Assembly: GCA_015061315.1 (NCBI GenBank)
Contig: SUWV01000010.1
Location: 1 to 64,000, forward strand
DNA: 64,000 nucleotides
Source: Lentimicrobiaceae bacterium
GTDB lineage: Bacteria > Bacteroidota > Bacteroidia > Bacteroidales > F082
Direction of reading: 5' to 3'
Below the pieces are notes generated by a model. It searched no databases. It saw only the letters and a list, made by a program, of their open reading frames with translations, and was not told the origin of the DNA. Made by a program: the position numbers and the translations under genes. Of the stretch, positions 1,801 to 63,360 are shown in pieces (positions within the stretch are counted from its first letter, which is position 1; every line of letters starts with the position of its first letter).

Positions 1801-1876
1801 AGAATCTGAGAATCTGAAAATCTGAGAATCTGAGAAATTTTTTAGGTTCTCAGGTTTTCAATTTTTCAGATTTTGG
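1801..1876. repeat. Octamer tandem repeat, inverted pair forming a hairpin
   Basis: The left half (1801-1836) is (CTGAGAAT)n and the right half (1845-1876) is diverged (ATTCTCAG)n, so the array is head to head. AATCTGAGAA (1827-1836) can pair with TTCTCAGGTT (1847-1856) with one wobble, followed by a T-rich stretch. This may serve as the sstT terminator. Confidence 0.8.
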
Positions 1877-1884
1877 TAACATAA

Positions 1885-2036
1885 CGTCTCACCGACGACG
1901 AACTCAAACAAATAGCCATTTTAGAGATGACCTCAAATTATAACGAATTTGTCAACATGGTAGAGAAGTATGATTAGTCGAAACTGGTGCTGCCTCCCGT
2001 TGAGTCACACGGACGTGTGACTGCATTGATGAAACC
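1885..2036 (+). pseudogene. Decayed coding remnant, family unknown
   Basis: Between sstT and the DUF454 gene one plus frame has protein-like composition. From about 1885 it reads a 30-residue stretch containing LTDDELKQIAILEM and ending VEKYD, then an in-frame TAG (1975-1977), then continues with LPPVESHGRVTALMKPYLLL towards 2065. There is no start codon or ribosome-binding context. It looks like the 3' end of a lost gene, but I do not recognise the family and chance cannot be excluded. A perfect 8-bp palindromic stem, AGTCACAC/GTGTGACT, lies at 2003-2022. Confidence 0.3.
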
Positions 2037-2396
2037 TTATTTGCTCTTATACGAAAGAATGTGAATCGTGACTCCTATTAATATTATGGCGAGTAATATT
2101 TGCAGCCAGAGCATTTCGCTTGCGACGAAGAAGATACAATATAACAAGCTGAGCCATAATAATGTAATGATATAAACTTTAGTCTTCAGAGGGATTATCT
2201 TGTTCTCTCTGAAGTTTTTTATGTATGAACCTAAATGCTTGCTGTTGATGAGTCTGTTGTATAATTTCTCCGAACTTTTGAAATAACACCAGGCAGAAAG
2301 AAGAAGTAAGGGCGTTGTCGGTAATATTGGGAGAAAAATGCCAATAACGCCTAATATCAATGAGATAGAACCAAATATTATTAATAGAATCTTCAT
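2037..2396 (-). CDS. DUF454 (YbaN-like) inner-membrane protein
   Basis: Small integral membrane protein of 119 residues, the usual length for DUF454/YbaN. The N-terminal helix contains GVIGIFLPILPTTPLLLLSA, matching the family's G-x(n)-PxLPTTPF/L signature. A conserved polar segment with SKHLGSYIKNF follows, then two C-terminal hydrophobic helices. The molecular role of the family is not established. It lies downstream of the MATE gene on the same strand, separated by a 59-bp repeat-filled gap, so co-transcription is possible. Confidence 0.85.
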   Translation of the reverse strand: MKILLIIFGSISLILGVIGIFLPILPTTPLLLLSAWCYFKSSEKLYNRLINSKHLGSYIKNFRENKIIPLKTKVYIITLLWLSLLYCIFFVASEMLWLQILLAIILIGVTIHILSYKSK

Positions 2397-2411
2397 CTCT
2401 TACAAACTCTA

Positions 2412-2460
2412 CATTCTTAACTGTTAATTGTAAACTGTTAATTGTAAACTGTAAACTATA
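2412..2460. repeat. Heptamer tandem repeat
   Basis: Units of 7 nt vary between CTGTTAA, TTGTAAA and CTGTAAA. The array fills the gap between the DUF454 and MATE genes, and the MATE stop codon (2456-2458) lies inside its last unit. Confidence 0.85.
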
Positions 2461-3784
2461 CTCTCTTCTTGTCCCATTTGGCAAATTTCATGTAGATGCC
2501 GCATAAAATTCCTAAGAGCGCGCCATATAGAATTTCTGCGGTCCAGACCAACTCAACTCTTGTCGTAAGATGTGTCATCGCCCAGATGAAAGCTACGTAA
2601 ATTACTAAAATGACAGCTTCTAAATATAATGCCGCCGAGGTGTTTCCTGTTCCAGAGACGGCTTCAAAGTACGCATTACCAATGCCTTGGAAAATTGTAC
2701 CGAAGCATATCACATAAATAGAAGGAACGACTAACTGTGCGAGGTTTAAGTCGTCGGTGTAAATCCTGGCTATCTGTATCGGGAAAATTGCGACTAATAT
2801 AATAATCGGTATTGTGCATAACAGACAGTTTTTCAATATCTTATTTATTGTGCTGAAGACTTGGTCGGAATGTCCTTCGCCAATAATTCTGCTCACTACT
2901 GTATTTGTCGTGGTAGCGAAGGCGAAACATGGAGTGATGAGAATCATATAGACGCTGCGTACAATCGAGGAGATGCCCGTAGCTGTCTCGCCCATCTTTT
3001 CTATCAGGATGAAGAAAATGAACCATACGCTGAACGAGAATAGCTTCTGTATCATGGTAGGTGTCGCTAATTTTAATATTCTTCCCATGAGCTCGGATTC
3101 TAATCTGTGTAGTTTGAACATGCCGTAGTCCTTGTTTCTCAATGTGATATAACTATATATGGTGAAGAATGTGAATGCCGAAACTTCTGCGCAGAACGAC
3201 GCTAATGCCGCACCGCCGATTCCCATCTCTGGAAAACCGAAATTACCGAAAATAAGGCAGTAATCTAAAATAATATTAACAACAGCCATTATTATAGTAG
3301 AATATGTAATGACTTTAGTATTTGAAATTCCTACATATAATGCTCTGTATAAGAAGTTGAAACACACGAAGATAATTCCGAACTGACGGTATTTGATGTA
3401 TTCTAACGAGGCTTCGTAAATGTTTGGCGAGTCGATGAGCCATAAAAGAAGATGGTCAGAGAAAATGTATAAGATGGAGAATAAAATCAATCCTAATATT
3501 AAGACGAAAATGGAGCCGTGTTGAAAGATGACGCCTATTCTACCGTGATTGCCTTCGCCAAATCGTCTCGCTATAATTATCTGTATTCCAATGGCAAAGC
3601 CAGTTGCAATGGTGGTGAAGACGAAATAAAACAGACCTGCAAGCATCGACGCTCCTAGGGCTATGACTCCTAATCGTCCCAAAAATGCAGTGTCGGTGAA
3701 ATTGATAATGGTCTGAGCCATATTGCCTAACATTATCGGTAAGGCAATACTCCAAATTTCTTTATTGCTGATTTGAGTTTTCAT
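2456..3784 (-). CDS. MATE family efflux transporter
   Basis: A 442-residue polytopic inner-membrane antiporter of the multidrug and toxic compound extrusion family, expected to export cationic compounds or metabolites using a Na+ or H+ gradient. The N-terminus KEIWSIALPIMLGNMAQTII followed by DTAFLGRLG is the classic MatE start. The protein shows the two six-helix halves typical of the fold, with a second MatE repeat starting near residue 235 (ILKLATPTMIQKLFSF). Length is normal. The branch (NorM or DinF-like) and the substrate cannot be fixed from sequence alone. A TAAATTTG box on the same strand lies 51-58 bp upstream of the ATG. Confidence 0.92.
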   Translation of the reverse strand: MKTQISNKEIWSIALPIMLGNMAQTIINFTDTAFLGRLGVIALGASMLAGLFYFVFTTIATGFAIGIQIIIARRFGEGNHGRIGVIFQHGSIFVLILGLILFSILYIFSDHLLLWLIDSPNIYEASLEYIKYRQFGIIFVCFNFLYRALYVGISNTKVITYSTIIMAVVNIILDYCLIFGNFGFPEMGIGGAALASFCAEVSAFTFFTIYSYITLRNKDYGMFKLHRLESELMGRILKLATPTMIQKLFSFSVWFIFFILIEKMGETATGISSIVRSVYMILITPCFAFATTTNTVVSRIIGEGHSDQVFSTINKILKNCLLCTIPIIILVAIFPIQIARIYTDDLNLAQLVVPSIYVICFGTIFQGIGNAYFEAVSGTGNTSAALYLEAVILVIYVAFIWAMTHLTTRVELVWTAEILYGALLGILCGIYMKFAKWDKKRV

Positions 3785-3834
3785 TATTGAAAATCAATAT
3801 TTTATAAAAATGATGCTGAAAAATTATGTGAATG

Positions 3835-3842: not shown

Positions 3843-3850
3843 AGAAAAAA

Positions 3851-3886
3851 ACTTGTTGTCTTATAGACTTATTCTCTTGTAGACTT
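3851..3886. repeat. Octamer tandem repeat in a divergent intergenic region
   Basis: Four degenerate 8-nt units (ACTTGTTG, TCTTATAG, ACTTATTC, TCTTGTAG) lie between the two divergent promoters and include the presumed -33 region of the rightward one. Confidence 0.75.
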
Positions 3887-3905: not shown

Positions 3906-3925
3906 TTTAATCGCTAATTTTGTAT

Positions 3926-11498: not shown

Positions 11499-12518
11499 AT
11501 GAATGTTTATTTCGGTGAAAACGCATTGACTCAATTGTCGGCTTTGACTTACAATTACGATAAGTTTTTTCTCTTGACAGACGAAAATATTTTCAAGATT
11601 TATTCTTCCATGATTGCTTCCATGATACCAGAGAAGGAAGTGAATAAAATAATACTTCCTGCTGGAGAACAAAGTAAAAGTCTTGATAATGTTGTGCTTA
11701 TATGGAATAAACTCCTTGAAGCTAAAGCTGGAAGAGATTCGCTTTTGATAAATCTTGGAGGCGGAACTATCTCGGATATTGGCGGTTTTGCGGCTTCATG
11801 TTTTAAAAGAGGAATTGATTTTATCAATGTGCCGACAACGCTTCTCGCAATGATTGACGCTTCTATAGGCGGAAAAAATGGAATAAATTTTAACAATTAT
11901 AAGAATCAAATAGGCTTGTTTTCAGAACCTAAATCCATAATAATAAATCCCTATTTCTTAAAAACTCTTAACGAAAGAGATATTCTCTCAGGACTTGCGG
12001 AGATGATGAAATATGCTTTTATTGCTGATGTTGCTTTTTTGGATATAGATGGCGATAACTATCTGGATTTCATTGAAAAAGCTGCTACTACAAAAGATGA
12101 AATCGTTGGTCTTGATATGAAAGAGTCGGGATTGCGCAAGATTTTAAATTTCGGTCATACTATCGGGCATGCCTTGGAATCGTATTATATTGATAAAGAT
12201 AATTATCTTACTCATGGAGAAGCAGTTGCCTTAGGAATGTATTCTTCTTTGTTACTTTCTAAAAAATATTGCGGATTAGATGAGAAATGGCTGTTCTTCT
12301 ATGAAATGTGGTTTAAGGCAAATCTTAATTTATTGAATCTCACTGATTTTGACGTCGATTCTATATTTGATTTTATTGCTCATGATAAAAAGAATAAAGC
12401 TGGTAAGCCTAAGTTCGTTTTGATTTCTGCTCCTGAAAAACCTCAGATTGACGTTGAAGTGAACGAGTCTGATATTATAGAATCTATTTCTGTATTAAAA
12501 GAAAAATTCTCTGCGTAA
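11499..12518 (+). CDS. aroB: 3-dehydroquinate synthase
   Basis: Second step of the shikimate pathway, converting DAHP to 3-dehydroquinate with NAD+ and a divalent metal. The 339-residue protein has the NAD-binding LINLGGGTISDIGGFAAS, then FINVPTTLLAMIDASIGGKN, the metal site GLAEMMKYAFI, and the two-histidine NFGHTIGHALE and LTHGEAVALGM. All expected metal ligands (Glu and two His) appear present. It starts 5 bp after the MurD-type gene and its TAA shares an A with the aroA ATG, giving translational coupling. Length is slightly short of 350-360 but complete. Confidence 0.95.
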   Translation: MNVYFGENALTQLSALTYNYDKFFLLTDENIFKIYSSMIASMIPEKEVNKIILPAGEQSKSLDNVVLIWNKLLEAKAGRDSLLINLGGGTISDIGGFAASCFKRGIDFINVPTTLLAMIDASIGGKNGINFNNYKNQIGLFSEPKSIIINPYFLKTLNERDILSGLAEMMKYAFIADVAFLDIDGDNYLDFIEKAATTKDEIVGLDMKESGLRKILNFGHTIGHALESYYIDKDNYLTHGEAVALGMYSSLLLSKKYCGLDEKWLFFYEMWFKANLNLLNLTDFDVDSIFDFIAHDKKNKAGKPKFVLISAPEKPQIDVEVNESDIIESISVLKEKFSA

Positions 12519-13870
12519 TGTTAATAAATCTTAAGCAAAATAATTTTAACATTGAGGTGGATTTGCCTTTGAGTAAAAGTGAAAGTAATCGCGCTTTGAT
12601 GATTGCTTTTTATTTAAAGACGCAGAGATTCAAAGACTCAGAGTCACAGAGACTTTGTGACTTTATAACTTCGCAGCTTAGCAATTCTGACGATACTGTT
12701 CTTCTTAAAAATCTTTTAGATAAAACAAATCGGTATATTTATCACTATAAACAAAGTCAGTTGTCCGTAGACTGTTGTCCGTTGACTTTAGATTGTGCTA
12801 ACGCAGGAACCGTTCTCCGTTTTTTAATGACAGCGGTAGCGAGTTTGCAATTAACAATGAACAATGAAAAATCTTTTGAAGTTTTCAGATTCTCAGATTC
12901 TCAGATTCTCAGTTTCTTATTAACAGGAAACGAGCGTATGAAGCAACGACCGATTGATTCTTTGGTGGAGGCGTTGAGAAGTCTCGGAGTTTCAATAGAA
13001 TACACAGAACGAGAATCATATCCGCCTGTCTTGATACGACCTTGTAACATCGAAGGCGGTAGGGCGGAAGTGAATGTAGAGCAAAGCAGTCAGTTTGCAT
13101 CTTCATTGTTGCTTGCCGCGCCTTTGTGGAAGAACGGCTTGGAGTTACATCTGAAAGGAAATATTTCGTCGTTGCCTTATATTGATATGACAATCAATAT
13201 GATGAAGCGATGCGGTATAGATGTGATTAGAAAAGATAGAGATATATTGGTGAAGCCTGGGAATTACAATATTGATAATATTAAAATAGAACCTGACTGG
13301 AGCGCGGCTGCTTTTTGGTACGAGATAGCAGCTCTTTCTGAAAATGCTGATATTTTCTTAAAAAATCTTAATATTGACTCATTACAAGCAGATGCCGCTG
13401 CGGTTGAAATGTTTGAAAATCTCGGAGTCGAGACAATCTCAGTAAAAGAGGGTGTTATAATTAGAAATGTAACTTTCAATTCTCAGTTTTTAACTTTCAA
13501 CTTTAAAGATTGTCCCGATTTATTCCCTTCTGTTATAGCTACTTGCGCTGGTCTTAAAGTGAATGCTACATTTACAGGGCTGAAGAATCTTTCGATAAAA
13601 GAGTCTGATAGAAAGAAAGCGATGATGACGGAGTTAAAGAAAATTAACGTTTCTTTTGAAGAAATTTCTGATGATGAATTAAAGATGCTATGTCCTGAGG
13701 AATTGCCTTTTTTTACAGAAGAAAATCCAATAATTTTTAACAATTATAATGATCATCGTATTGCGATGGCACTTTCAATATTATCTTTAAAAATAGGTGC
13801 GATTGAAATGAAAAACACAGAAGTCGTCTCGAAATCATATCCGAATTTCTTTGAAGCTGTTGGGTATTGA
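12518..13870 (+). CDS. aroA: 3-phosphoshikimate 1-carboxyvinyltransferase (EPSP synthase) carrying in-frame repeat inserts
   Basis: Transfers enolpyruvate from PEP to shikimate-3-phosphate. Conserved segments are LPLSKSESNRALMIA (residues 17-30), CANAGTVLRFLMT (93-105), NERMKQRPID (138-147), QSSQFASSLLLAAP (189-202), KESDRKKAMM (361-370) and NDHRIAMALS (411-420). At 450 residues it is about 40 longer than usual. The excess falls in stretches encoded by 7- or 8-nt tandem repeats at residues 35-54, 79-91, 111-134 and 320-328. The frame stays open and all motifs survive, so the enzyme is probably active. It is the last gene of the murL-murD-aroB-aroA run. Confidence 0.93.
   Translation: MLINLKQNNFNIEVDLPLSKSESNRALMIAFYLKTQRFKDSESQRLCDFITSQLSNSDDTVLLKNLLDKTNRYIYHYKQSQLSVDCCPLTLDCANAGTVLRFLMTAVASLQLTMNNEKSFEVFRFSDSQILSFLLTGNERMKQRPIDSLVEALRSLGVSIEYTERESYPPVLIRPCNIEGGRAEVNVEQSSQFASSLLLAAPLWKNGLELHLKGNISSLPYIDMTINMMKRCGIDVIRKDRDILVKPGNYNIDNIKIEPDWSAAAFWYEIAALSENADIFLKNLNIDSLQADAAAVEMFENLGVETISVKEGVIIRNVTFNSQFLTFNFKDCPDLFPSVIATCAGLKVNATFTGLKNLSIKESDRKKAMMTELKKINVSFEEISDDELKMLCPEELPFFTEENPIIFNNYNDHRIAMALSILSLKIGAIEMKNTEVVSKSYPNFFEAVGY
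12622..12663. repeat. Octamer repeat inside aroA (residues 35-48)
   Basis: Five degenerate 8-nt units (GCAGAGAT, TCAAAGAC, TCAGAGTC, ACAGAGAC, TTTGTGAC) encode the non-conserved stretch QRFKDSESQRLCDF. The motif is the same class as the intergenic arrays at 31533-31580 and 55898-55923. Confidence 0.75.
12756..12790. repeat. Octamer repeat inside aroA (residues 79-91)
   Basis: Units GTCAGTTG, TCCGTAGA, CTGTTGTC and CGTTGACT encode QSQLSVDCCPLTL, immediately before the conserved DCANAGT substrate-binding motif. The sequence resembles the intergenic array at 14004-14036. Confidence 0.6.
12848..12915. repeat. Heptamer then octamer repeats inside aroA (residues 111-134)
   Basis: A short heptamer array (CAATTAA, CAATGAA, CAATGAA) is followed by four units of ATTCTCAG-type octamer at 12881-12915, encoding VFRFSDSQILSFL. 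Together they form an insert between the DCANAGTVLRFLMT and NERMKQRPID motifs. Confidence 0.85.
13472..13507. repeat. Heptamer repeat inside aroA (residues 320-328)
   Basis: Five 7-nt units (ACTTTCA, ATTCTCA, GTTTTTA, ACTTTCA, ACTTTAA) encode FNSQFLTFN in a surface-loop position before the conserved CPDLFP segment. Confidence 0.65.
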
Positions 13871-14036
13871 ACTAATAACTTCATCACTTCATCACCCTAT
13901 CACTCCATAACTCCATCACTCCATAACTCTTGTAGACGTCAACGATATACTGTTTCTTTTCATCGGTATCGTCGAAACGTCTCTACTTGTAGACTTAAAA
14001 AAAACCGTAGACTGTAGACAGTAGTCTGTAGACTTT
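13871..14036. repeat. Octamer arrays between aroA and the lutA-like gene
   Basis: The first array (13871-13930) has units ACTTCATC, ACTTCATC, ACCCTATC, ACTCCATA, ACTCCATC and ACTCCATA. The second (14004-14036) has units such as CCGTAGAC, TGTAGACA, GTAGTCTG and TAGACTTT and can fold on itself. Between them lies low-complexity sequence with no gene. Confidence 0.75.
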
Positions 14037-18180: not shown

Positions 18181-18207
18181 ATTTAGACAACATACATTGT
18201 TCTTAGT

Positions 18208-18250
18208 TCATTGTCAATTGTCAATTGTTAATTGTTAATTGTTAATTGTT
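18208..18250. repeat. Heptamer tandem repeat overlapping the pyrF 3' end
   Basis: Near-perfect 7-nt units, CAATTGT and TAATTGT. The last codons and stop of pyrF lie inside, so the C-terminal QLTINN of PyrF is repeat-encoded. Confidence 0.9.
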
Positions 18251-19049
18251 CCGCCATTTGTTCTTGAAGTTTTCTAGCTTCTTCGGCTGCTTTTTCTGCG
18301 AAGTCTTTTTCTTTAGAAGCGTAGATGATGCCTCTTGAAGAGTTGACTATCAATCCGCATTCTTTATTTAATCCGTATTTTGCTACTGCTGCCAAGTCGC
18401 CACCCTGAGCTCCAACGCCTGGAACTAACAAGAAGTGATTTGGTAACATCTTTCTAATCTCGCCTAATTCCTCAGGATGTGTAGCACCAACAACATACAT
18501 CATCTTATTGTCGTCAGCCCAAGTACTTGATTTAGCGAGGACTTCTTTATAAAGTTCATGGTCATTTACATTGAGATATTGGAAGTCTTTAGAACCTTTG
18601 TTAGAAGTGAGAGCTAACAAGATAACCCATTTATCTTCAAAACCTAAGAATGGTTCTACGGAGTCTAATCCCATATAAGGAGCCACTGTGATAGCATCGC
18701 TGCTCATTGTCTCGAAAAACGCTCTTGCGTAGTTGGCTGATGTGTTGCCGATGTCGCCTCTCTTAGCGTCAGCGATGACGAAAATCTCAGGATAATTAGC
18801 CTTGATATATTTTATGGTCTTGTCTAAACTCTCCCAGCCTTTTGCTCCATAAACTTCATAGAAAGCAGTGTTAGGCTTGTATGCTATTGTGTATTGTGCT
18901 GTTGCGTCGATGATGCTTTTGTTAAATTCAAAAACGGGATCTTCACATTCTAAAAGATGCTGTGGAATCTTGTTGATGTCGGTGTCTAAACCAACACAAA
19001 GAAATGATTTCTTTGCAAAGATTTGTTCTACTAATTGTTTTTTGTTCAT
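18228..19049 (-). CDS. pyrF: Orotidine 5'-phosphate decarboxylase (type 2)
   Basis: Final step of UMP synthesis, decarboxylating OMP. The 273-residue length and the sequence [19 protein letters not shown], with the catalytic lysine/aspartate segment [20 protein letters not shown], place it in the longer PyrF type 2 group found in Bacteroidota. [11 protein letters not shown] and [11 protein letters not shown] near the C-terminus are the phosphate-binding segments. The last residues, AEQLTINN, derive from the heptamer repeat at the 3' end and are unlikely to be functional. It is the last gene of the porE-like/purM/prfA/pyrF run. Confidence 0.95.
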
Positions 19050-19061: not shown

Positions 19062-19151
19062 AAGTCAACAAGTCAACGAGTCAACAAGTCAACGAGTTAT
19101 TATTCATTATTAACTATTAATTGTTAATTGTTAATTGTCAATTGTTAATTC
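19062..19151. repeat. Octamer then heptamer arrays between pyrF and prfA
   Basis: GTCAACAA and GTCAACGA alternate in the octamer part (19062-19098). TAATTGT and CAATTGT units follow (19112-19151). The prfA stop codon (19145-19147) is inside the heptamer array, so both classes sit side by side in one 95-bp gap. Confidence 0.9.
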
Positions 19152-20215
19152 TCCTTAAGTCGTTCTGCGTTTTCTGCCATCTGTAGTTTTTCTATAATCT
19201 CGTTGATATCGCCGTCAATTATAGCTTGGAGATTATAAATTGTCAAGTTGATACGATGATCGGTGACGCGTCCTTGTGGATAGTTGTATGTCCTGATTTT
19301 AGCAGAGCGGTCGCCAGTAGATACCATAGTCTTCCTCTGCGAGGCTATGCTTTCCAAGTATTTGTTATATTCTCTTTCGTAGAGACGAGTCCTGAGTACT
19401 TTCATAGCAGTGGCGAGGTTCTTAATCTGTGATTTCTCGTCCTGACAAGAAACTACTATGCCGCTCGGAATGTGTGTCAATCTGACTGCAGAATATGTAG
19501 TGTTGACCGACTGTCCTCCAGGACCTGATGCGCAGAATGTCTCTTTACGTATATCTTTCTCATTGAGTTCTACGTCGAACTCTTCTGCTTCAGGGAGAAC
19601 CACGACGGAAGCTGCTGAGGTATGTATTCTGCCTTGAGTTTCGGTCTTAGGCACACGCTGAACGCGATGCACTCCCGACTCGAATTTAAGCAGTCCGTAG
19701 GCTCCGTCGCCGATGACGTTGAATACAATCTCTTTAAAACCTCCAGCTGTTCCCTCGTTCATTTCGACGAGTTCTATCTTCCAGCCTTTTGTCTCGCAAT
19801 ATCTTATATACATTCTGTAAAGGTCTCCTGCGAATATCGATGCTTCGTCGCCGCCTGTTCCTGCACGAATTTCCATGACAGCATTTTTATCATCGGTAGG
19901 ATCTTTAGGAATGAGCATCACACGAATCTCTTCAACAAGAGTCTCGCATCTTTGTTCAGCTGCTTCTAACTCTTCTTGTGCCATCTCGCGTATATCATCG
20001 TCTTTCTCGTTCTTCAAAATCTCGCGTGCTTCTTCAATATTAGCTAAGAGATTTTTATATTCTTTGAATGCAGCGACGATAGGTTCTAAATCTTTATAGT
20101 CCTTGTTGATCTTGACGAAACGTTTCATGTCGCCGATGATCTCAGGGTCGTTGAGTTGTTCACCGAGTGCTTCCCATTTGGTTTTGATATCTTCTAACTT
20201 ATCAATGATTTCCAT
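19145..20215 (-). CDS. prfA: Peptide chain release factor 1
   Basis: Recognises UAA and UAG and triggers peptide release on the ribosome. The 356-residue protein has the helical domain 1, the GTGGDEASIFAGDLYRMY segment, and the catalytic loop with the universal GGQ motif in ASGPGGQSVNTTYSAV, whose glutamine is the usual methylation site. The RF1 anticodon tripeptide region is in RVPKTETQGRIHTSAA, which is RF1-like (PxT) rather than RF2-like (SPF). It lies 19 bp downstream of purM and is probably co-transcribed with it. Confidence 0.95.
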   Translation of the reverse strand: MEIIDKLEDIKTKWEALGEQLNDPEIIGDMKRFVKINKDYKDLEPIVAAFKEYKNLLANIEEAREILKNEKDDDIREMAQEELEAAEQRCETLVEEIRVMLIPKDPTDDKNAVMEIRAGTGGDEASIFAGDLYRMYIRYCETKGWKIELVEMNEGTAGGFKEIVFNVIGDGAYGLLKFESGVHRVQRVPKTETQGRIHTSAASVVVLPEAEEFDVELNEKDIRKETFCASGPGGQSVNTTYSAVRLTHIPSGIVVSCQDEKSQIKNLATAMKVLRTRLYEREYNKYLESIASQRKTMVSTGDRSAKIRTYNYPQGRVTDHRINLTIYNLQAIIDGDINEIIEKLQMAENAERLKEN

Positions 20216-23967: not shown

Positions 23968-24063
23968 CATTGTTCATTGTAAATTGTTCATTATAAAAAA
24001 GAGCTCCTGAATTATCAGAAGCTCTCTTAACTTTAGCCTTTAGTCTTTCGACTTTAGCCTTTT
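23968..24063. repeat. Heptamer arrays flanking the secDF terminator
   Basis: ACATTGT, TCATTGT, AAATTGT and TCATTAT units occupy 23968-23995. CTTTAGC, CTTTAGT, CTTTCGA and CTTTAGC units occupy 24029-24063. Both have 7-nt periods, with the terminator hairpin between them. Confidence 0.75.
23995..24024 (-). terminator. Intrinsic terminator of secDF
   Basis: On the minus strand GAGCTTCTGA, a 4-5 base loop, and TCAGGAGCTC form a 10-bp stem with one G-T wobble, followed by six T residues (24000-23995). It lies about 40 bp past the secDF stop. Confidence 0.85.
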
Positions 24064-28670: not shown

Positions 28671-28735
28671 AAGTCTAAAGTCTAAAGCCTAAAGTCCTAT
28701 GTTAATTGTACATTGTTAATTGTTAACTGATTAAT
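28671..28735. repeat. Heptamer arrays spanning the ABC ATPase 3' end
   Basis: AAGTCTA, AAGTCTA, AAGCCTA, AAGTCCT (28671-28698) are followed by GTTAATT, GTACATT, GTTAATT, GTTAACT, GATTAAT (28701-28735). The stop codon (28697-28699) lies at their junction, and the protein tail NQLTINNVQLT is repeat-encoded. Confidence 0.85.
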
Positions 28736-29695
28736 AAAGATGTCGTTCATTGAAGGAAGCAGTTCTTTATACGAAATAATAGTTCCTTTTTCTGAAAGAT
28801 AATTGATTAAGATGTTAGGATTGACATCATTTTCAGCTTTGACATTCAATGTCATTTCTCCGTTGTTATCTGTCTTTTCTGAAATTAATGTAAAACCTTC
28901 AGGAAGTTTATTTGCGTCTGAGAATCTGAGAATTTGAGAATCTGAGAAATAAGGAACGACATCTTCTTGTTGTCTCGTTGTCTCGTTGTCTCGTTGTCTT
29001 AAAACAATCTCAAAGCTATGGTCTTTAAAATCTTGTTTTATCTGGTAGACGCTGCCTTCAAGGATTTTCTGCCCTTTGTTGATAAGCATGATGTTATCGC
29101 ATAGCTCCTCTACAGATGCCATGTTGTGAGTAGAGAAAATGATGGTGGCTCCTTTGTCTCTTAATTCTAATATTTCTTTTTTAAGTAAGTTTACGTTGAT
29201 AGGGTCGAAGCCAGAGAATGGTTCATCGAAGATAAGTAACTGAGGCTCATGAATTACAGTTACGATAAACTGTATTTTCTGTTGCATACCCTTGCTGAGC
29301 TCTTCTACCTTTTTATCCCACCAGCTCAGAATGTCGAATTTCTTAAACCAATATTTCAATCTTTTCTCGGCTTCTTTTTGACTTACGCCTTTTAGTTGCG
29401 CGAGATATATAGCTTGTTCACCGACTTTCATTGTTTTGTAAAGTCCTCGTTCTTCAGGGAGATAGCCTATCTGAGAGATGTGGTTTCGGTTCAGTTTCTC
29501 TCCGTTAAATATTATCTCGCCTTGGTCGGGAGCTGTTATCTGGTTAAGCATTCTTATCAAAGTGGTTTTTCCTGCACCGTTAGGACCGAGAAGTCCGTAG
29601 ATGCTTTGTTTTGGCACCTTGATACTGATGTCGTTAAGAGCTTTGTATGTCCCGTAGGTCTTGCTTACGTTATTTATCTCGATAAAGTTTTGCAT
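28697..29695 (-). CDS. ABC transporter ATP-binding protein, NatA-like, with in-frame repeat insert
   Basis: A 332-residue ATPase partner of the downstream permease. Walker A is GPNGAGKTT (37-45), the signature ELSKGMQQKIQ is at 132-142, Walker B QLLIFDEPFSGFDP is at 152-165, and the switch His is in FSTHNMASVEELCD. The C-terminal accessory domain, from about 225, carries a repeat-encoded segment (about 234-260: QRDNETTRQQED then YFSDSQILRFSD) and a repeat-encoded tail (322-332). The core NBD is untouched, so function is probably kept. It starts 7 bp after dnaJ. Confidence 0.88.
   Translation of the reverse strand: MQNFIEINNVSKTYGTYKALNDISIKVPKQSIYGLLGPNGAGKTTLIRMLNQITAPDQGEIIFNGEKLNRNHISQIGYLPEERGLYKTMKVGEQAIYLAQLKGVSQKEAEKRLKYWFKKFDILSWWDKKVEELSKGMQQKIQFIVTVIHEPQLLIFDEPFSGFDPINVNLLKKEILELRDKGATIIFSTHNMASVEELCDNIMLINKGQKILEGSVYQIKQDFKDHSFEIVLRQRDNETTRQQEDVVPYFSDSQILRFSDANKLPEGFTLISEKTDNNGEMTLNVKAENDVNPNILINYLSEKGTIISYKELLPSMNDIFINQLTINNVQLT
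28915..29000. repeat. Two octamer arrays inside the ABC ATPase gene
   Basis: On the coding strand the ATTCTCAG class (28950-28915) encodes FSDSQILRFSD, and the AGACAACG class (29000-28966) encodes LRQRDNETTRQQED. They lie 15 bp apart, with DVVPY between them. The first array uses the stop-free orientation. Confidence 0.85.
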
Positions 29696-31532: not shown

Positions 31533-31668
31533 GTTGAGTCTCTGAGTCACCAAGTCGCCGAGTCTCTGAGTTAGTGAGTGTTCTATGATGCTAAGTGTTT
31601 TAAGTTGTTAAGTCCCAGTTCTATGATACCTTTAATTCCTCATTCCTCATTCTTCATTCTTAATTATC
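31533..31668. repeat. Octamer and heptamer arrays between murA and grpE
   Basis: Octamers (31533-31580): GAGTCTCT, GAGTCACC, AAGTCGCC, GAGTCTCT, GAGTTAGT. Heptamers (31637-31668): CCTCATT, CCTCATT, CTTCATT, CTTAATT, ATCAATC, reaching the murA stop. The remaining 31431-31532 is AT-rich with no gene. Confidence 0.8.
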
Positions 31669-32971
31669 AATCTATTCTCTTAATGTCCGCTCCCAAGGCT
31701 CTTAGTCTTTCGTCGATGTTTTGATAGCCTCTGTCGATTTGTTCTATGTTTTCAATTGTGCTTTCGCCTTTGGCTGACAGTGCAGCTATAAGCAATGCGA
31801 CTCCAGCTCTGATGTCGGGCGAGACCATCTTCACTGCATGTAACTGCTGCGTTCTATCTAAGCCTACTACCGTAGCTCTATGAGGGTCGCATAATATTAT
31901 CTGCGCTCCCATATCTATAAGTTTATCAACGAAGAAGAGACGGCTTTCGAACATCTTCTGATGTATGAGCACTGTTCCTTTAGCTTGTGTGGCGACGACT
32001 AAAACGATGCTTATCAAGTCGGGAGTGAAGCCTGGCCAAGGAGCGTCGGCTACTGTCAGTATGCTTCCATCTATGAACGTTTCTACTTCGTAGTGTTCTT
32101 GCTCTGGTATATATATGTCATCGCCTCTAAATTCCATCTTGATGCCGAGTCGGCGGAATACGTCGGGAATGATGCCAAGGTCTTTGATGCCAGCGTCTTT
32201 TATGGTGAGCTCCGAGCCTGTCATGGCTGCCATTCCAATGAAGCTGCCTACTTCTATCATGTCGGCGAGGAGACGATGTGAGGTGCCGCTGAGTTTTTCT
32301 ACACCTTCTATTTTTAGTAAGTTGGATCCAATGCCGTTTATCTTAGCGCCCATTGAAGTAAGCATTCTGCAGAGTTGTACGATATATGGCTCGCAGGCAG
32401 CGTTGAAGATAGTGGTCTCTCCTTGAGCCATGACAGCTGCCATGATGATGTTGGCAGTTCCTGTCACAGAAGCTTCGTCGAGGAGCATGTACGTTCCTTT
32501 CAACCCATTAGAAGCTGTGACTTTCTGATAATTATTAGCATTCTCGAAAGTGGCTCCTAATTTCTGCAGTCCTATGATATGAGTGTCTAAACGGCGACGA
32601 CCTATCTTGTCGCCTCCAGGTTTAGGCAAGAAGCCTTTGCCGAAACGAGCTAACATCGGACCTAATATCATGACGCTACCTCTCAATCGTGTGGCTTTGT
32701 TGGAAAAATCCTCTGTCTCAAAATATGAGAAATCTATGTCTTTCGCTTGAAGGCTGACTTCATTGGGAGTTGTCCTTTCAACATCAACACCCATGTCTTT
32801 CATTAAGTCGATGAGATTGTTGATGTCGACTATATTAGGTAGATTCGTTATGCGAACCTTTTCCTCAGTGAGAAGACATGCGCAGATGATCTGCATCGCT
32901 TCGTTTTTAGCGCCTTGCGGAACAATGCTGCCATGCAATTTGTTGCCGCCAACAATTTTGAATTTTCCCAT
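31667..32971 (-). CDS. murA: UDP-N-acetylglucosamine 1-carboxyvinyltransferase with Asp at the fosfomycin position
   Basis: First committed step of peptidoglycan synthesis: transfers enolpyruvate from PEP to UDP-GlcNAc. The 434-residue protein has GAKNEAMQII (20-29) and the active-site loop PKPGGDKIGRRRLDTH, where the residue normally called Cys115 is Asp121 (codon at 32611-32609). Later motifs include DYIE-type segment LADMIEVGSFIG and DRGYQNIDERLRALG. Asp at this position is known from mycobacterial and chlamydial MurA to give fosfomycin insensitivity, so the same is inferred here. The start overlaps the DUF4290 stop by one base. Confidence 0.95.
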   Translation of the reverse strand: MGKFKIVGGNKLHGSIVPQGAKNEAMQIICACLLTEEKVRITNLPNIVDINNLIDLMKDMGVDVERTTPNEVSLQAKDIDFSYFETEDFSNKATRLRGSVMILGPMLARFGKGFLPKPGGDKIGRRRLDTHIIGLQKLGATFENANNYQKVTASNGLKGTYMLLDEASVTGTANIIMAAVMAQGETTIFNAACEPYIVQLCRMLTSMGAKINGIGSNLLKIEGVEKLSGTSHRLLADMIEVGSFIGMAAMTGSELTIKDAGIKDLGIIPDVFRRLGIKMEFRGDDIYIPEQEHYEVETFIDGSILTVADAPWPGFTPDLISIVLVVATQAKGTVLIHQKMFESRLFFVDKLIDMGAQIILCDPHRATVVGLDRTQQLHAVKMVSPDIRAGVALLIAALSAKGESTIENIEQIDRGYQNIDERLRALGADIKRID

Positions 32972-51289: not shown

Positions 51290-51354
51290 CACCCGCAAAA
51301 AAGATAAGGGAAATAATACTTGACTTTAAAGATAATCAAGATAATAAAAATAAT

Positions 51355-51471
51355 ATGAAAGTCAGAGCATCAATCAAGAAAAGATCAGACGATTGCAAAA
51401 TAGTGCGTCGTAAAGGTAAATTGTATGTAATTAACAAAAAGAACCCTAAAGAAAAACAACGTCAGGGTTAA
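51355..51471 (+). CDS. rpmJ: Large ribosomal subunit protein bL36, zinc-free type
   Basis: A 38-residue 50S protein, short enough to be easily missed. It starts at ATG 51355 with [20 protein letters not shown] and ends KEKQRQG before TAA (51469-51471). Only one of the zinc ligands of the C+ form is left (DDCKIV), so it is the C- type that does not bind zinc. It lies between infA and rpsM, the usual place. Confidence 0.95.
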
Positions 51472-55897: not shown

Positions 55898-55966
55898 CAA
55901 GTCACCGAGTCTCTAAGTCTCTATGTTCTTAGTTCATTCTTCATTCTTAATTCTTCATTCTCCATT
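55898..55966. repeat. Octamer and heptamer arrays at the RecD-like 3' end
   Basis: Octamers CAAGTCAC, CGAGTCTC, TAAGTCTC (55898-55923) adjoin heptamers TTCATTC, TTCATTC, TTAATTC, TTCATTC (55933-55966). The stop (55921-55923) and the protein tail EELRMKNELRT lie inside. Confidence 0.85.
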
Positions 55967-57555
55967 AAATCAAACCACTCGTCTTTAAAATTAACGAGGT
56001 AGACTTTCTCGCTCGCTCTCGTCAGCGCTGTGTATAACCAGCGGAGGTCTCCGACTTCAAGGGCGCTGCCTTCCGGCAGATAGGGCGCTTCAACAAAGAC
56101 ATTGTTCCACTGTCCACCTTGCGTCTTGTGACATGTCAGTGCATATCCGTATTTTACCTGCAAAGCATTATAATATGGATTCTCCTTCATGGCTTTCCTC
56201 CTGTCCGTTGCCCTCGGAATATCCATATAGTCTTCTTCAACAGATTGATATAATCTCTTAGATTCTTCTTCCGTCAATGCGGGCGCCTCGCTGTGCAAGG
56301 TCTCTAACAGTATCTTGACAGATAGGGTGGGAGTGTCGGCATAATCTAACAGCATTATATCTACATCAGCAAAATGAAAACCATACATCTCCTCAATCTT
56401 ATTTATCCTCATGACTTCAACCATATCGCCATTGGCAAGGAAGGGAATAAGAATCTGAGAATCTGAGAATCTGAGAATCTGAGAATTGGTTGTTTTAGAC
56501 GTGTCAATTACAGAGTGTTCATTTTTATGGTGTAATTGGCGCGTCTCTACTTCTTGTCTCGGAGACTTGGTGACTTGGTGACTTAGAGACTCATTAATCC
56601 AATAATAATTATTCTTTACTATCATGAGTTTCTCTCCTGCCGAGAGTTCGCCTTCTTCTTGTAACACTCTGCTTCTGATGGCTTGGTTGAACATATTGGC
56701 TCTCTTGTTGGAACGGCAGACAACGACAGCGTCGTTATTACTTCTCTTGTCACCGAAACTCTGCCATAACAATTCCTCAAACGACATAGGGTCTATCTTT
56801 TCAATATCACTGAAATTATTGATGTCTAATAAAGGAAGATGATATTGACTCTGATACAGACTTGGTGGCTCAGTGACTTGGTGACTCGGTGACATTAAAT
56901 TTCTGATTTTCGTTGCGTTGTAAAGTATTCCTGAGTCGAAAGCTTGTCGCATTACTTCTTTCATTTCGTAGGTGGCGGTAGTGAGATTGAAGCTGCTACG
57001 GAGTAAGTCGAAGTCCATGGCGGGGCTGATGTCAAGGCCTACGGGCGGCAGCTGTGCCGCGTCTCCGATGAGCAGAAGCTTACAACGGCTGCCGCTGAAG
57101 ACGTATTCTATCAGGTCGTCTAACAAAGAACGCGACCATGAGAAACCGTCGCCTTGATCTGAAATCATAGAACATTCATCAACGATGAAGATGGTGTTGA
57201 TAGATTTGTTCTCGTCTCTTGTCATTCTCAGTTCTCCATTGGCAGTTGCTTGAAAACGATATAATTTCTTATGTAAGGTCAGCGCTGTCTTGCCAGTGTA
57301 TCTGCTCATCACCTTGGCGGCTCTTCCTGTAGGTGCGAGAAGCTGAAACCCTGTTCCTATCTGGGGTAGCGTTTTTACCAATGTGGAAATCAATGTGGTT
57401 TTGCCTGTTCCTGCATAGCCTCTCAAAAGATAGAGCGGCCTTTCTTTTTCAGTAAGTATAAAAGCAGATAAATGATATAAGACTCTCGCCTGATCTTTGG
57501 TCGGGCTAAAGCCGAAGTTACTCAACAATATATTATATAAGGTATCTCTATCCAT
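55921..57555 (-). CDS. RecD-like SF1B DNA helicase with in-frame repeat inserts
   Basis: A 544-residue helicase of the RecD/Pif1-like superfamily 1B. Walker A is LRGYAGTGKTTLISTL (44-59), motif Ia is LAPTGRAAKVMS, motif II is TIFIVDECSMISD (121-133), motif III is LLIGDAAQLPPVG, and the C-terminus has YGYALTCHKTQGGQW and LRWLYTALTRASEKVYLV. Lacking RecD2's N-terminal domain, it resembles the short Bacteroidota RecD-like ATPases. Residues 221-235, 322-370 and 533-544 are encoded by 7/8-nt repeats, making it longer than it needs to be. It lies 10 bp downstream of the TamL-like gene. Confidence 0.87.
   Translation of the reverse strand: MDRDTLYNILLSNFGFSPTKDQARVLYHLSAFILTEKERPLYLLRGYAGTGKTTLISTLVKTLPQIGTGFQLLAPTGRAAKVMSRYTGKTALTLHKKLYRFQATANGELRMTRDENKSINTIFIVDECSMISDQGDGFSWSRSLLDDLIEYVFSGSRCKLLLIGDAAQLPPVGLDISPAMDFDLLRSSFNLTTATYEMKEVMRQAFDSGILYNATKIRNLMSPSHQVTEPPSLYQSQYHLPLLDINNFSDIEKIDPMSFEELLWQSFGDKRSNNDAVVVCRSNKRANMFNQAIRSRVLQEEGELSAGEKLMIVKNNYYWINESLSHQVTKSPRQEVETRQLHHKNEHSVIDTSKTTNSQILRFSDSQILIPFLANGDMVEVMRINKIEEMYGFHFADVDIMLLDYADTPTLSVKILLETLHSEAPALTEEESKRLYQSVEEDYMDIPRATDRRKAMKENPYYNALQVKYGYALTCHKTQGGQWNNVFVEAPYLPEGSALEVGDLRWLYTALTRASEKVYLVNFKDEWFDLMENEELRMKNELRT
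56451..56593. repeat. Octamer arrays inside the RecD-like gene (residues 322-370)
   Basis: Array 56451-56486 is (CTGAGAAT)n on the plus strand, so the coding strand reads ATTCTCAG and encodes SQILRFSDSQIL. Array 56551-56593 (GGTGACTT, GGTGACTT, AGAGACTC) encodes ESLSHQVTKSPRQE. The 64 bp between them are non-conserved coding sequence. Confidence 0.9.
56860..56893. repeat. Octamer array inside the RecD-like gene (residues 221-232)
   Basis: Units CTTGGTGG, CTCAGTGA, CTTGGTGA, CTCGGTGA encode SPSHQVTEPPS on the minus strand, between helicase motifs III and IV. Confidence 0.85.
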
Positions 57556-59906: not shown

Positions 59907-59918
59907 AAACTTTTTTTA

Positions 59919-60008: not shown

Positions 60009-60014
60009 AATTTA

Positions 60015-61310: not shown

Positions 61311-61324
61311 ATCATCTCCTTCTC

Positions 61325-61361
61325 TTATAGTCTTATTGCTTATTGACTTATTGTCTTATTA
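61325..61361. repeat. Octamer array at the tonB 3' end
   Basis: TTATAGTC, TTATTGCT, TATTGACT, TATTGTCT units. The tonB stop (61348-61350) and last codons (encoding IIRQ) lie inside. Confidence 0.75.
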
Positions 61362-62115
61362 TAAATGTGTATGTTATGCTGCCTTTTTGTAATTCGGCTG
61401 CTTTATCGTCTTTGTTGAAGATAGAATTTAAGGCAGCTCGTTTTGCCGATTCCAACATGCTGCTGTTGACTATAGTTGTTCCTTTACCTATCTCGGCTCT
61501 CTGCACGCGTCCGTCTTTGTCGACCCAGATGTCTACTACCACTGTGCCTTCTTCGCTGAACTCTTTGCTTGGCGAGGAGATGCTTTTAGCGCCGCGTCCG
61601 CCTAAGTCGTAGGCAGGACCATCGCCGCTGCCACCATGACCTTCATATCTGTTGATGTCTTTCAGGCCTTCTGGAATGCCACGCTCCATATCGTCTTTCT
61701 TATCATCGCTCTGTTTGTCGTTGTCAGCGTTTTTGGTGACAGGAGCCTTGAACATAGCACGCTGGTTGACGACAGGCTTTTCTTCCTCGACTTTTTCAAC
61801 AGTGTCTTCTTCCTCGACTTCTTCAGTCTCTTCTTCTATAGCTGGCACCTCCTCGTCTTCAAAAGTAATATTATCTTCCTTGACTTCTTCAGTCTCTTCA
61901 ACTTGTTGACTTGTAGTCTCTTGGTCTTGTAGACTTGTAGTCTCGTAGTCTTGTTGACTTGTTTCATACATTCCAAGATTTACTTCAACGCCTTCTTCTC
62001 CAGGAAGAGGTAATGGAGTCTTGAAACATAATACGAACAACAAGACTATAGCTGTCGCATGAATGACGACAGTCGTGATGATGCCATATAGTTTATTTCT
62101 GTTTTTGTTTGTCAT
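61348..62115 (-). CDS. tonB: TonB-family energy transducer with repeat-encoded linker
   Basis: A 255-residue protein linking ExbB-ExbD to outer-membrane receptors. One N-terminal helix (about 11-31, VVIHATAIVLLFVLC), a periplasmic linker rich in Glu and Gln, then a TonB C-terminal domain (about 170-255) with EGTVVVDIWVDKDGRVQRAE and ITYTFIIRQ. Linker residues 51-73 (ETSQQDYETTSLQDQETTSQ) are encoded by an octamer array at 61878-61967. Its start overlaps the end of exbD by 4 bp, and exbB-exbD-tonB forms one unit. Confidence 0.88.
   Translation of the reverse strand: MTNKNRNKLYGIITTVVIHATAIVLLFVLCFKTPLPLPGEEGVEVNLGMYETSQQDYETTSLQDQETTSQQVEETEEVKEDNITFEDEEVPAIEEETEEVEEEDTVEKVEEEKPVVNQRAMFKAPVTKNADNDKQSDDKKDDMERGIPEGLKDINRYEGHGGSGDGPAYDLGGRGAKSISSPSKEFSEEGTVVVDIWVDKDGRVQRAEIGKGTTIVNSSMLESAKRAALNSIFNKDDKAAELQKGSITYTFIIRQ
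61878..61967. repeat. Octamer array inside tonB
   Basis: About eleven 8-nt units on the plus strand (CTTGTTGA, CTTGTAGT, CTCTTGGT, CTTGTAGA, CTTGTAGT, CTCGTAGT and others) encode a Glu/Gln/Thr-rich linker. The units match the intergenic class at 3851-3886 and 59919-60008. Confidence 0.9.
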
Positions 62116-62525
62116 TTCTTGTTCGATGTGGCTAACAACACTTTATGCTTATTATCAGTCTCCTTGTTTATCTCGTTGACTGCGTCGATGATGTTTACTA
62201 TATATTGTACAGCTACGCTTTTGTCGGAGCGTATCACTACAGTGCCTTCCATCACGTCCGATAACGCGATGTGTATCTCTCTTTGTAAATCGCTTTCACC
62301 GACGGCTGTCTCTCCAACATAATAGTTGTTGTTTTGGTCAACATATACGGTGACACTTTGTTTCGACATCGTCTTGCTTTTACTTGAAGGAAGTAATAAC
62401 TTGATGGCGTTAGGTGCAACCAATGTTGATGTCAACATAAAGAATATCAGCAAAAGAAACACCAAATCCGACATCGACGACGAATTGAAATCTATATTCC
62501 TTTTATTTCTCGCTCTTATTGCCAT
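62112..62525 (-). CDS. exbD: Biopolymer transport protein ExbD
   Basis: A 137-residue single-pass periplasmic protein using the proton gradient with ExbB. The helix SMSDLVFLLLIFFMLTSTLV (about 17-36) carries the conserved aspartate (SMSD). The periplasmic domain has VYVDQNNNYYVGETAVGE and VVIRSDKSVAVQYIVNIIDA. It precedes tonB with a 4-bp overlap and follows exbB after a 100-bp heptamer-filled gap. Confidence 0.93.
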   Translation of the reverse strand: MAIRARNKRNIDFNSSSMSDLVFLLLIFFMLTSTLVAPNAIKLLLPSSKSKTMSKQSVTVYVDQNNNYYVGETAVGESDLQREIHIALSDVMEGTVVIRSDKSVAVQYIVNIIDAVNEINKETDNKHKVLLATSNKK

Positions 62526-62533
62526 AACTTTTG

Positions 62534-62622
62534 AATTTACAATTTACAGTTTACAATTTACAGTTTACAGTTTACAATTTATAATTTCTTAATTGTTAAT
62601 TGTTAATTGTTAATTGTCAATT
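62534..62622. repeat. Heptamer arrays between exbB and exbD
   Basis: ACAATTT/ACAGTTT units (62537-62587) then TAATTGT/CAATTGA units (62589-62622), about 12 units in all, forming the largest heptamer block in the window. The gap holds no gene. Confidence 0.95.
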
Positions 62623-62625
62623 GAA

Positions 62626-63312
62626 TCACGCTGGTTCATTAAGTACGTCCATGAACTCTATGCTTTTACTTTCGAGTAGGTTCACCACGTTGTCAATTCT
62701 TGAAACCAAGATGTTATAGAATATATAAGCTATGATACCTACGATAAGACCACCCACTGTCGTCACCATAGCCTGATATATACCAGTCGATAGTAATTCG
62801 ATGTCGATATTATTACCAGCCATCGACATATCGTAGAACGCGCGTATCATACCTGTCACTGTTCCGAGGAAACCGAGCATAGGAGCAGCACCCGAAATCA
62901 TACCTATCAGGGCAACACCTTTTTCTAACTTACTGACTTCTAAGTTACCTACGTTTTCTATCGCGGTCTGTATGTCGTTGAGAGGCTTGCCGATGCGCGA
63001 GATGCCTTTCTCTATCATTCTCGATATTGGAGTGTCGGTCTCTTCGCATAAGTGTTTGGCATCGTCTAACTTACCTTCAAACATATAAGAACGAATCATA
63101 TTCATGAAGTTGTCGTCTTTCTTTGATGCCTTGTTGATGGTGATGAATCTCTCGCTGAAGATGTAGACTGCTATCACCGAGAAGATGGCGAGGATCACCA
63201 TAATCCATCCGCCTTCTTTGGCTAATTCCCATAACGATAATCTGATTTCATCAGCTTCTGGAGAGCTGATAAGGTCGGTGCTGACCTGAAGGATAATGCT
63301 TGATAAATTCAT
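62626..63312 (-). CDS. exbB: MotA/TolQ/ExbB proton channel family protein
   Basis: A 228-residue inner-membrane proton channel subunit with three helices: one near 37-57 (MVILAIFSVIAVYIFSERF), then about 135-160 and 182-205. The conserved MotA/ExbB domain has LEKGVALIGMISGAAPMLGF, LGTVTGMIRAFYDMS and the AMVTTVGGLIVGIIAYIFYN region. It forms the exbB-exbD-tonB motor; a TolQ role is a less likely alternative given the TonB gene. Confidence 0.9.
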   Translation of the reverse strand: MNLSSIILQVSTDLISSPEADEIRLSLWELAKEGGWIMVILAIFSVIAVYIFSERFITINKASKKDDNFMNMIRSYMFEGKLDDAKHLCEETDTPISRMIEKGISRIGKPLNDIQTAIENVGNLEVSKLEKGVALIGMISGAAPMLGFLGTVTGMIRAFYDMSMAGNNIDIELLSTGIYQAMVTTVGGLIVGIIAYIFYNILVSRIDNVVNLLESKSIEFMDVLNEPA

Positions 63313-63360
63313 AATTCTTAATCCTTAATTCTTAATTCATAATTCTTAATTCTTAATTGT
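63307..63360. repeat. Heptamer array between anmK and exbB
   Basis: ATTCATA, ATTCTTA, ATCCTTA, ATTCTTA, ATTCATA, ATTCTTA, ATTCTTA units fill the gap. The anmK stop (63353-63355) lies in the last one. Confidence 0.9.

Follow-up and report, generated by a model that had tools for sequence, protein, structure and literature searches.

Why should a bacterial genome be strewn with short tandem arrays whose units measure either 7 or 8 nucleotides (nt), and hardly ever anything else? The question is raised by a window of 64 kb, positions 1-64000 of contig SUWV01000010.1, from the genome (2.47 Mb in 49 contigs; G000 in what follows) of an uncultured Bacteroidales bacterium whose named relatives are gut metagenome assemblies. 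An earlier note on this window had proposed that the arrays form one coherent class of mixed 7/8 period, and had named a period histogram lacking an excess at 7 and 8 as the outcome that would speak against it. The histogram, drawn with controls, shows just such an excess. Namely, in a sample of 464 kb, consisting of the window and 20 stretches of 20 kb, and with mismatches allowed, 147 of the 151 arrays of period 4-12 have a period of 7 (74 arrays) or 8 (73 arrays), the remaining four being of period 10 (two), 9 and 11 (one each). In other words, G000 carries one short 7/8 array approximately every three thousand bases and, with heptamer and octamer arrays nearly equal in number, half of the class is not heptameric.

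Periods and words

The 20 kb stretches of G000 come from contigs matched by a heptamer search, with positions picked independently of the hits, and the contigs of the relatives G150, G151, G153, G137, G163, G170 and G154 were taken from pattern matches, with stretches again placed by position; consequently, array density may be slightly enriched in these samples. Arrays of period 14, 16, 21 and 24 without a period-7 or period-8 call of their own are left out of the total of 147. The signal is equally clear in exact runs of at least 13 nt, where periods 7 and 8 give 40 runs each and their multiples 43 (period 14), 30 (16), 20 (21), 16 (24), 8 (28) and 8 (32), with none at periods 2-6, 9, 12 and 13, two at period 10 and one at period 11 in the same 464 kb. 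A looser threshold gives 90 arrays of period 7 and 89 of period 8, against five, seven and two of periods 9, 10 and 11 and one each of periods 1, 3, 6 and 12. A third-order Markov control sequence yielded no exact runs at either period. What is more, the real intergenic set holds 115 arrays (63 of period 7 and 52 of period 8), while 20 replicates of dinucleotide-shuffled intergenic DNA gave 10 arrays of any period in total, one of them of period 7. The excess of tandem repeats over random expectation, by which long simple sequence repeats with units of 5-11 nt are recognized, is therefore present. We relied on the Markov and shuffle controls, because the reversed-pattern control for the heptamer search matched about as often as the pattern itself and is uninformative, the word being nearly symmetric when reversed.

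In the window, the earlier note had counted at least 20 arrays of 7 or 8 nt and none of 3, 6 or 9. With Tandem Repeats Finder (TRF), periods of 7, 8 or their multiples (14, 16, 21, 24) occur at 28 separate places, a single row of period 9 (51327-51355) and a few of periods 12, 13, 15, 17 and 27 being listed as well. At our stricter threshold there are 7 heptamer and 9 octamer arrays, i.e. 16 in the 64 kb, plus one of period 14 and none of period 3, 6 or 9. The count thus holds only at the laxer TRF cut-off.

Could the arrays be a product of assembly or of chance? The named relatives are indeed metagenome assemblies: the Omp85-type gene in the neighbourhood has relatives at 11 named loci, and the nearest 7 are all in metagenome-assembled genomes (MAGs), named either Bacteroidales bacterium RGIG... 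(cattle, water buffalo, roe deer and yak hindgut) or Lentimicrobiaceae bacterium SIG105/SIG106. However, shuffled sequences give almost no arrays, MAGs from the two projects (RGIG and SIG) show the same periods, and the in-frame arrays described below keep conserved genes open. For practical purposes, we consider this explanation refuted.

The words themselves form a small lexicon common to the whole genome, coming back at unlinked loci. Counting rotations and both strands, AATTGTT is found in 34 of the 74 heptamer arrays, and GACTTGTT and CTCAGATT in 18 and 13 of the 73 octamer arrays, respectively. The class as a whole is not built from one or a few fixed words: G000 has many word families, and they differ between sister species. 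Units vary within arrays, as had been claimed, and the further apart two units lie in an array, the less they resemble each other: similarity is 0.855 at lag 1 and 0.68 at lag 8 for period 7, and 0.857 at lag 1 and 0.617 at lag 7 for period 8. In arrays of at least five units, adjacent units are identical in 26-30% of cases; phase-variable contingency repeats have near-identical units, usually of 1-5 nt, whose copy number changes within a strain. Finally, there are 12 same-period pairs of arrays at most 60 nt apart, 8 of which score as inverted; about five are convincing by eye and could form imperfect hairpins, while in the unconvincing ones the two words are unrelated.

Species dialects and turnover

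Different species spell their arrays differently. With G000 represented by 30 randomly drawn arrays, the sharing of identical words is 0.319 within species and 0.104 between species for period 7, and 0.225 and 0.074 for period 8; none of 2000 label permutations reaches the observed value in either case, and sharing within species is about three times that between species. In particular, the octamer pattern RAGTCAMC (AAGTCAAC/AAGTCACC) occurs in 11 of 149 genomes of the family, all in one genus, with 318 partly overlapping matches in G000, 115 in G153, 76 in G150, 70 in G151, 50 in G009 and 7-9 in each of six others. The reversed pattern, meant as a control, matches none of the 11 but does match 33 further genomes of the genus and one from a different genus; it fits an unrelated word, CTGAACAA, and five of the 33, picked for their high counts, carry CTGAACAA/CTGAATAA octamers with 25-64 matches each. 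The dialects also overlap, octamer-word sharing between G000 and G153 being 0.193, as compared with 0.166 among arrays within G000. Period 7 or 8 is dominant in the other array-rich species too. G153 stands out in having, in addition, 14 arrays of period 6 (L105, L117-L121; e.g. GTCATC/GTCATT), a period almost lacking in other species.

Several array-poor members of the genus have no period-7 or period-8 array in 20-40 kb, and 15 stretches from 12 genomes of other families have none either, apart from three heptamer arrays in G057. In a contig from a viral collection (L172), heptamer arrays (CCGTAGG) and octamer arrays (GTTGACTC) occur together within 1.5 kb, and the mixture of periods may therefore not be confined to the clade. 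A viral origin was considered and set aside: the AAGTCAAC pattern matches two viral contigs and the CTGAGAAT pattern none. A search of plasmids found octamers like AAGTCAAC in three cyanobacterial plasmids only, and the word AGAATCTG in none. The plasmids in question (L174, L175 and L176) carry arrays of the octamer GTTGACTT, similar to the Bacteroidales word, in hypothetical-protein genes adjoining ParA/AAA-family genes.

How do the dialects look at one and the same site? In those comparisons of orthologous gaps that could be anchored in seven relatives, which re-use gaps across relatives and are confounded by gap length, an array is present in both genomes 17 times, in G000 alone 15 times, in the relative alone 5 times and in neither genome 101 times; where both have one, an identical word is held in common in 4 of 17. 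The expected presence/absence and word changes between relatives are thereby borne out, while arrays of identical length across distant relatives, which would have told against them, did not turn up, though the heptamer array CTTTAGC/CTTTAGT at 24031..24062 (plus strand, adjoining the SecDF stop) is identical in G153, so that some arrays are stable.

Individual sites illustrate the range. The octamer array TCTTATTG at 61323..61360 (minus strand; compared as site 61311-61347) is expanded in G000, whereas its relatives have one to two units at this site, namely TTATTGTCTTATT in G151 and close variants in the others. In the gap between the ExbD and ExbB genes, the minus-strand heptamer arrays AATTTAC and then AATTAAC (62534..62623) have heptamer counterparts in 6 of 7 relatives, and the minus-strand array AATTAAG at 63306..63358 (compared as 63313-63352) has one in none of the 7. 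The octamer array AAGTCAAC at 19062..19097 (no strand assigned) has the same word in G153. Next to it, at 19099..19150, a minus-strand heptamer array lies at the stop of a release-factor (RF-1/PCRF) gene (19145-20215); here G150 and G153 have heptamers with a word in common, G181 and G009 have heptamers in other words, and G151 was left uncalled.

Nearly strict unit lengths and mutually exclusive genome-wide dialects are what one would expect of a dedicated enzyme that, like telomerase, writes repeats from an internal, species-specific template. We consider this very improbable. Namely, the approximately ten word families of a single genome would need many templates, and the growth at 61311-61347 proceeded from a local stretch. 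What is more, reverse-transcriptase matches do not track abundance, with one in G000, none in G181 (84% complete) or G172 (79%), and matches in the array-poor G018, G023, G026, G031 and G034. An origin from a reverse transcriptase was rejected for this lack of association with array abundance.

Gene ends and reading frames

Gaps between same-strand genes hold 77 of the 147 arrays, convergent gaps 20 and divergent gaps 16; a further 27 lie within called genes and 7 at the edges of sequences. Arrays occupy 81 of the 195 gaps of at least 60 nt in the 464 kb. Their density per kb comes to 3.05 for convergent gaps, 3.01 for tandem gaps and 1.55 for divergent ones. The underlying gene models (369 genes) follow a simple longest-open-reading-frame rule, and gap and stop positions are therefore approximate. 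The earlier note had described clustering at the 3' ends of genes and between convergent or tandem genes, which is right for stop-bearing heptamers but is not confirmed for the class as a whole, with 27 of 147 arrays inside called genes. Nor is the spread window-wide: no period-7 or period-8 array lies at 32,300-55,900 of the window, a block with the genes of S12, EF-G, L2, SecY, RpoA and enolase in which most gaps are short. The idea that octamer arrays often adjoin heptamer arrays also has to be given up, since mixed pairs make up only 6 of the 22 that lie within 100 nt of each other, as compared with an expectation of 11.1; within-gap clustering in general is not enriched either, with 18 close pairs as compared with 30.9 under random placement.

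Strand tells more. The main heptamer family (AATTAAC, AATTGAC, AATTAAG, AATGAAG and kin) is sense-oriented in each of its 30 same-strand gaps, and in 27 of these it begins no more than 30 nt past the upstream stop; its place is at stops and not just upstream of start codons, although some minor families are found near starts. Among other words, the octamers TGAGAATC and TAAAGGGT are sense in 6 of 7 and 4 of 4 cases, whereas 8 of 9 heptamers of the TAAAGAC type lie on the antisense strand, many of them near the next start. A wider, earlier word list gives 34 sense and 4 antisense for heptamers nearest a stop, and 6 and 5 for those nearest a start. As the word lists were chosen after the arrays had been viewed, orientation was re-tested without them, by asking for stops in all three frames. 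For heptamers at gene stops, the sense strand has them in 41 and the antisense strand in 26 of 46 arrays in G000, and in 27 and 10 of 35 in other species. Near starts, the figures are 15 and 11 of 22 in G000 and 10 and 10 of 19 elsewhere. Among heptamers that fall entirely within 0-15 nt past the stop, the sense strand has more stops in 19 cases and the antisense strand in 5, with 6 ties (8, 1 and 4 in G000; 11, 4 and 2 in the others), and simple stop-codon seeding leaves this bias unexplained. Octamers show no consistent strand bias of stops in the test without word lists.

Examples among the heptamer arrays of the window, all on the minus strand, are the array AATTAAC/AATTGAC (gene strand) at 18206..18250, which supplies the stop of an OMP decarboxylase-family gene (18228-19049), the array at 28700..28735 at the 3' end of an ABC ATPase gene (28697-29695), and the array AATTAAG/AATGAGG at 31635..31665, 1 nt past the stop of an open reading frame (ORF) at 31667-32971.

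These observations lend themselves to another interpretation, in which the arrays are functional sites under selection: gene-end heptamers would act in RNA as multi-frame stop buffers, or else as sites for a co-evolving RNA- or DNA-binding protein that the dialects follow. The sense orientation in 30 of 30 gaps, the proximity to upstream stops and the all-frame stop counts agree with this, as does the fact that 7 and 8 are not multiples of three, so that a stop in the unit covers all frames. On the other hand, other non-multiples of three (5, 10, 11) are nearly absent, octamers lack a consistent bias, all-frame stops near starts in other species are equal on the two strands, arrays also sit in proteins and in divergent gaps, and the ribosomal-protein block is array-free, if mostly short of long gaps. 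On balance, we hold selection for function to be a rather unlikely account of the class.

Within genes, arrays are carried in frame. The RecD/PIF1-like helicase gene of G000 (55921-57555, minus strand) carries octamer arrays in two of its loops and, at its end, a tail made of heptamers. An insert at the first loop holds CAGATTCT (56450..56486), a palindromic element (56496..56560, no strand assigned) and AAGTCACC (56564..56591); the second loop holds an octamer array encoding SPSHQVTE (56859..56893); and a heptamer array at 55933..55966 forms the C-terminal codons (...ENEELRMKNELRT), a tail missing from the 16 other sequences printed in the alignment. One of the loops measures 66 nt in 4 of 13 sequences and 93-198 nt in 9, always in frame, the helicase being the gene in which the frame of the insert was followed through the relatives. 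Six of the nine enlarged loops contain clear 7/8-mer arrays, consisting of octamers in G000, G172, G151 and G009, of heptamers in G181 and of both kinds in G144. Those of G153 (CGTCTCC-like) and G150 (two octamer units plus a palindrome) are short or irregular, and G027 retains only a relic; the words are mostly different.

The ABC ATPase gene likewise contains, on the minus strand, in-frame octamer arrays CAGATTCT (28917..28948) and GAGACAAC (28965..28999), both given in gene-strand sense. Octamer-register repeats with differing words occupy this loop in 5 of 6 alignable species (irregular in G153); three further relatives were unalignable, and the loop of G181 is without an array. The EPSP synthase gene (12518-13870, plus strand) holds an octamer-register repeat of 16-nt period (12612..12643) and the array TCAGATTC (12885..12917; peptide RFSDSQIL), and the ORF at 61348-62115 an octamer array with a 24-nt superperiod (61901..61962, minus strand), all in frame. 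Octamers well inside genes are free of sense-strand stops in 13 of 15 cases in G000 and 12 of 13 in other species. Four features had escaped the earlier note: this insertion into conserved genes, the species dialects, the substitution of one word for another at a given site, and the stop-codon register of the sense strand.

The palindrome in the helicase insert belongs to a dispersed, REP-like element (GTAGAGACG...CGTCTCTAC; REP stands for repetitive extragenic palindromic) of approximately 45-70 nt with a variable centre, seen in the window at 13933-13983 and 56496-56560 and in L036, L041, L046 and others. Could such an element, REP-like or akin to miniature inverted-repeat transposable elements, be the mobile unit that carries octamers along, with the arrays as its parts or by-products? 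Its copies in the helicase insert and at 13933-13983 lie beside arrays or break them up; an inverted octamer pair with the core AGTACTTCCC has six genome matches with at most two mismatches (four exact), as compared with one for the reversed control, and the three copies read have a common flank resembling the palindrome centre; and G150 has several tandem palindrome-plus-octamer units. Nevertheless, of 21 pattern matches, some of them clearly due to chance, only 6 lie within 30 nt of an octamer array, as do 12% of random points, and 2 are near a heptamer array, as compared with 13% of random points. Moreover, a Y1 transposase (PF01797) match was found in 5 of 8 array-rich and 7 of 8 array-poor genomes examined, and in none of the array-rich G000, G150 and G153 (assemblies 93-95% complete). 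Palindromes are a minority companion and not the repeated unit, and we consider it quite unlikely that they carry the arrays; an origin from REP and its associated tyrosine transposase (RAYT) was rejected on the missing transposase matches and the weak palindrome association. The fixed AGTACTTCCC core flanked by inverted octamer arrays was seen at L035:1199, L049:18385, L050:1652 and three more places, and the tandem units of G150, of approximately 100 nt with a palindrome and octamer words in each, lie downstream of its helicase gene (L104).

The remaining arrays of the window are as follows. An octamer array with the words AGAATCTG/TGAGAATC (1801..1836, plus strand) lies 26 nt downstream of an SDF symporter gene (536-1774). 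The heptamer array AACTGTA/AATTGTA, with a 14-nt superperiod (2419..2457), is at the 3' end of a minus-strand ORF (2456-3784), and an octamer array with a 16-nt superperiod (CTTATAGA/CTTATTCT) follows at 3851..3886, neither with an assigned strand. Directly after the EPSP synthase stop comes the octamer array ACTCCATC (13878..13929, plus strand) and, beyond the unstranded palindromic element at 13933..13983 (GTAGACG...CGTCTCTAC) between the arrays, the heptamer array GTAGACT (14007..14034, plus strand). The heptamer array CTTTAGA (gene strand) lies at 28671..28696 on the minus strand.

Origin and place among known repeats

How might such a system arise? The explanation we favour, and to which we give about an even chance, is that the arrays come from self-propagating tandem duplication and short-homology copying between arrays, filtered by reading-frame selection. 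Slippage or template switching would duplicate a short word-like stretch, advancing 7-8 nt at a time; stalled replication ends could then switch among the hundreds of similar arrays via 7-16 nt of microhomology, which would spread the current words and homogenize them into a species dialect. Selection would then decide what is kept: at gene ends, words that hold stops on the sense strand; within tolerant protein loops, in-frame octamers without stops; and in the ribosomal-protein block, no arrays at all. The 7/8 ruler itself may reflect a polymerase footprint, a published guess for heptamers, or descent from founder arrays. Local duplication is well supported by the decay of similarity and by the case of 61311-61347. 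Genome-wide dialects call for communication between arrays or for common selection, and it is copying by template switching that we infer here. The gene-end register is probably in part a leftover of reading-frame selection, while its persistence past the stop keeps a functional reading alive.

That said, several points weigh against this explanation. Slippage alone does not predict a strict 7 and 8, and the sense bias just past stops goes beyond simple seeding. No wholesale copying of an array between unlinked loci without its flanks has been shown, with no formal test of variant order made, and the longest matches that include flanks contain neighbouring arrays and repeated gene ends. The identical array in G153 and, in the orthologous-gap comparison, the re-use of gaps and the influence of gap length belong here as well. 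Loss of mismatch repair, tried as a contributing cause, is not evident, since MutS-family matches are found in 16 of 16 genomes (the strongest class, with E near 1e-84, in 15, but not in G026). Y-family polymerase matches are present in 15 of 16 genomes, the one without being G172 (79% complete). The array-rich G000, G150, G151, G153, G009, G144 and G181 have a common form of DinB, with an open frame of 424-450 amino acids (aa) and 130-134 bits, as compared with 380-390 aa (one of 470) and 153-161 bits in most array-poor species, while G025 has nothing but a different match; being confounded with phylogeny, this clade-specific form is only a lead.

Alternatively, the clade may possess a dedicated rewriting machinery with a 7-8 nt ruler, which would insert as well as overwrite tandem words, drawn from a drifting genome-wide lexicon, at gene ends and protein loops. 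We think this unlikely; if true, it would mean that sister species keep their array sites but spell each in a dialect of their own.

Several known systems bear a likeness to the arrays. Rickettsia palindromic elements and other selfish inserts place repetitive DNA in frame into conserved genes at tolerant sites; the former are palindromes of fixed sequence, whereas G000 has tandem words of 7 or 8 nt. Heptanucleotide repeats of cyanobacteria go by the name of STRR. Mrazek et al. (2007) are cited for an excess of heptanucleotides and for the idea of slippage at polymerase contacts (via PMC4679880 and PMC4692102). As far as these citing passages go, the likeness to both lies in the excess of 7-nt units, while in G000 octamers are equally common, units are degenerate and dialects differ between sister species. 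TAACTGA heptamer direct repeats, described from marine Beggiatoaceae, some cyanobacteria and five Bacteroidetes (PMC4679880), are, in the parts of that article considered here, also mostly intergenic, many per genome and patchy among relatives; the word holds stop codons, the arrays sometimes adjoin a stop codon or sit in a gene, and other heptamer repeats accompany them in Gramella. However, they consist of one fixed word mostly just upstream of start codons, related heptamers are rarely repeated in the main genome, and the same parts do not mention octamers (PMC4679880). In G000, by contrast, there are numerous words, about as many octamer as heptamer arrays, dialects that vary with the species, inserts carried in frame and a sense register at gene ends. 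Finally, GGGAATC heptamers form 186 and 183 heterogeneous arrays in two Xanthomonas species, mostly at the same gene pairs in both and with wide variation in length and sequence; they differ in being one G-rich word with G-quadruplex potential, and the passages considered mention neither octamers nor in-frame inserts (PMC4692102).

A literature search whose coverage mostly left out subscription journals brought up nothing, by title or abstract, about arrays of mixed 7/8 period or about dialects. The arrays are akin to known heptanucleotide repeats; what sets them apart are the equally common octamers, the species dialects and the in-frame inserts. Present in 81 of 195 longer gaps and interrupting conserved enzymes, they shape gene ends, protein loops and annotation. 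With the same periods and different words at the same loci, they offer a natural experiment on the preference of bacterial tandem repeats for 7-8 nt, and on the concerted evolution of hundreds of short, scattered repeats.

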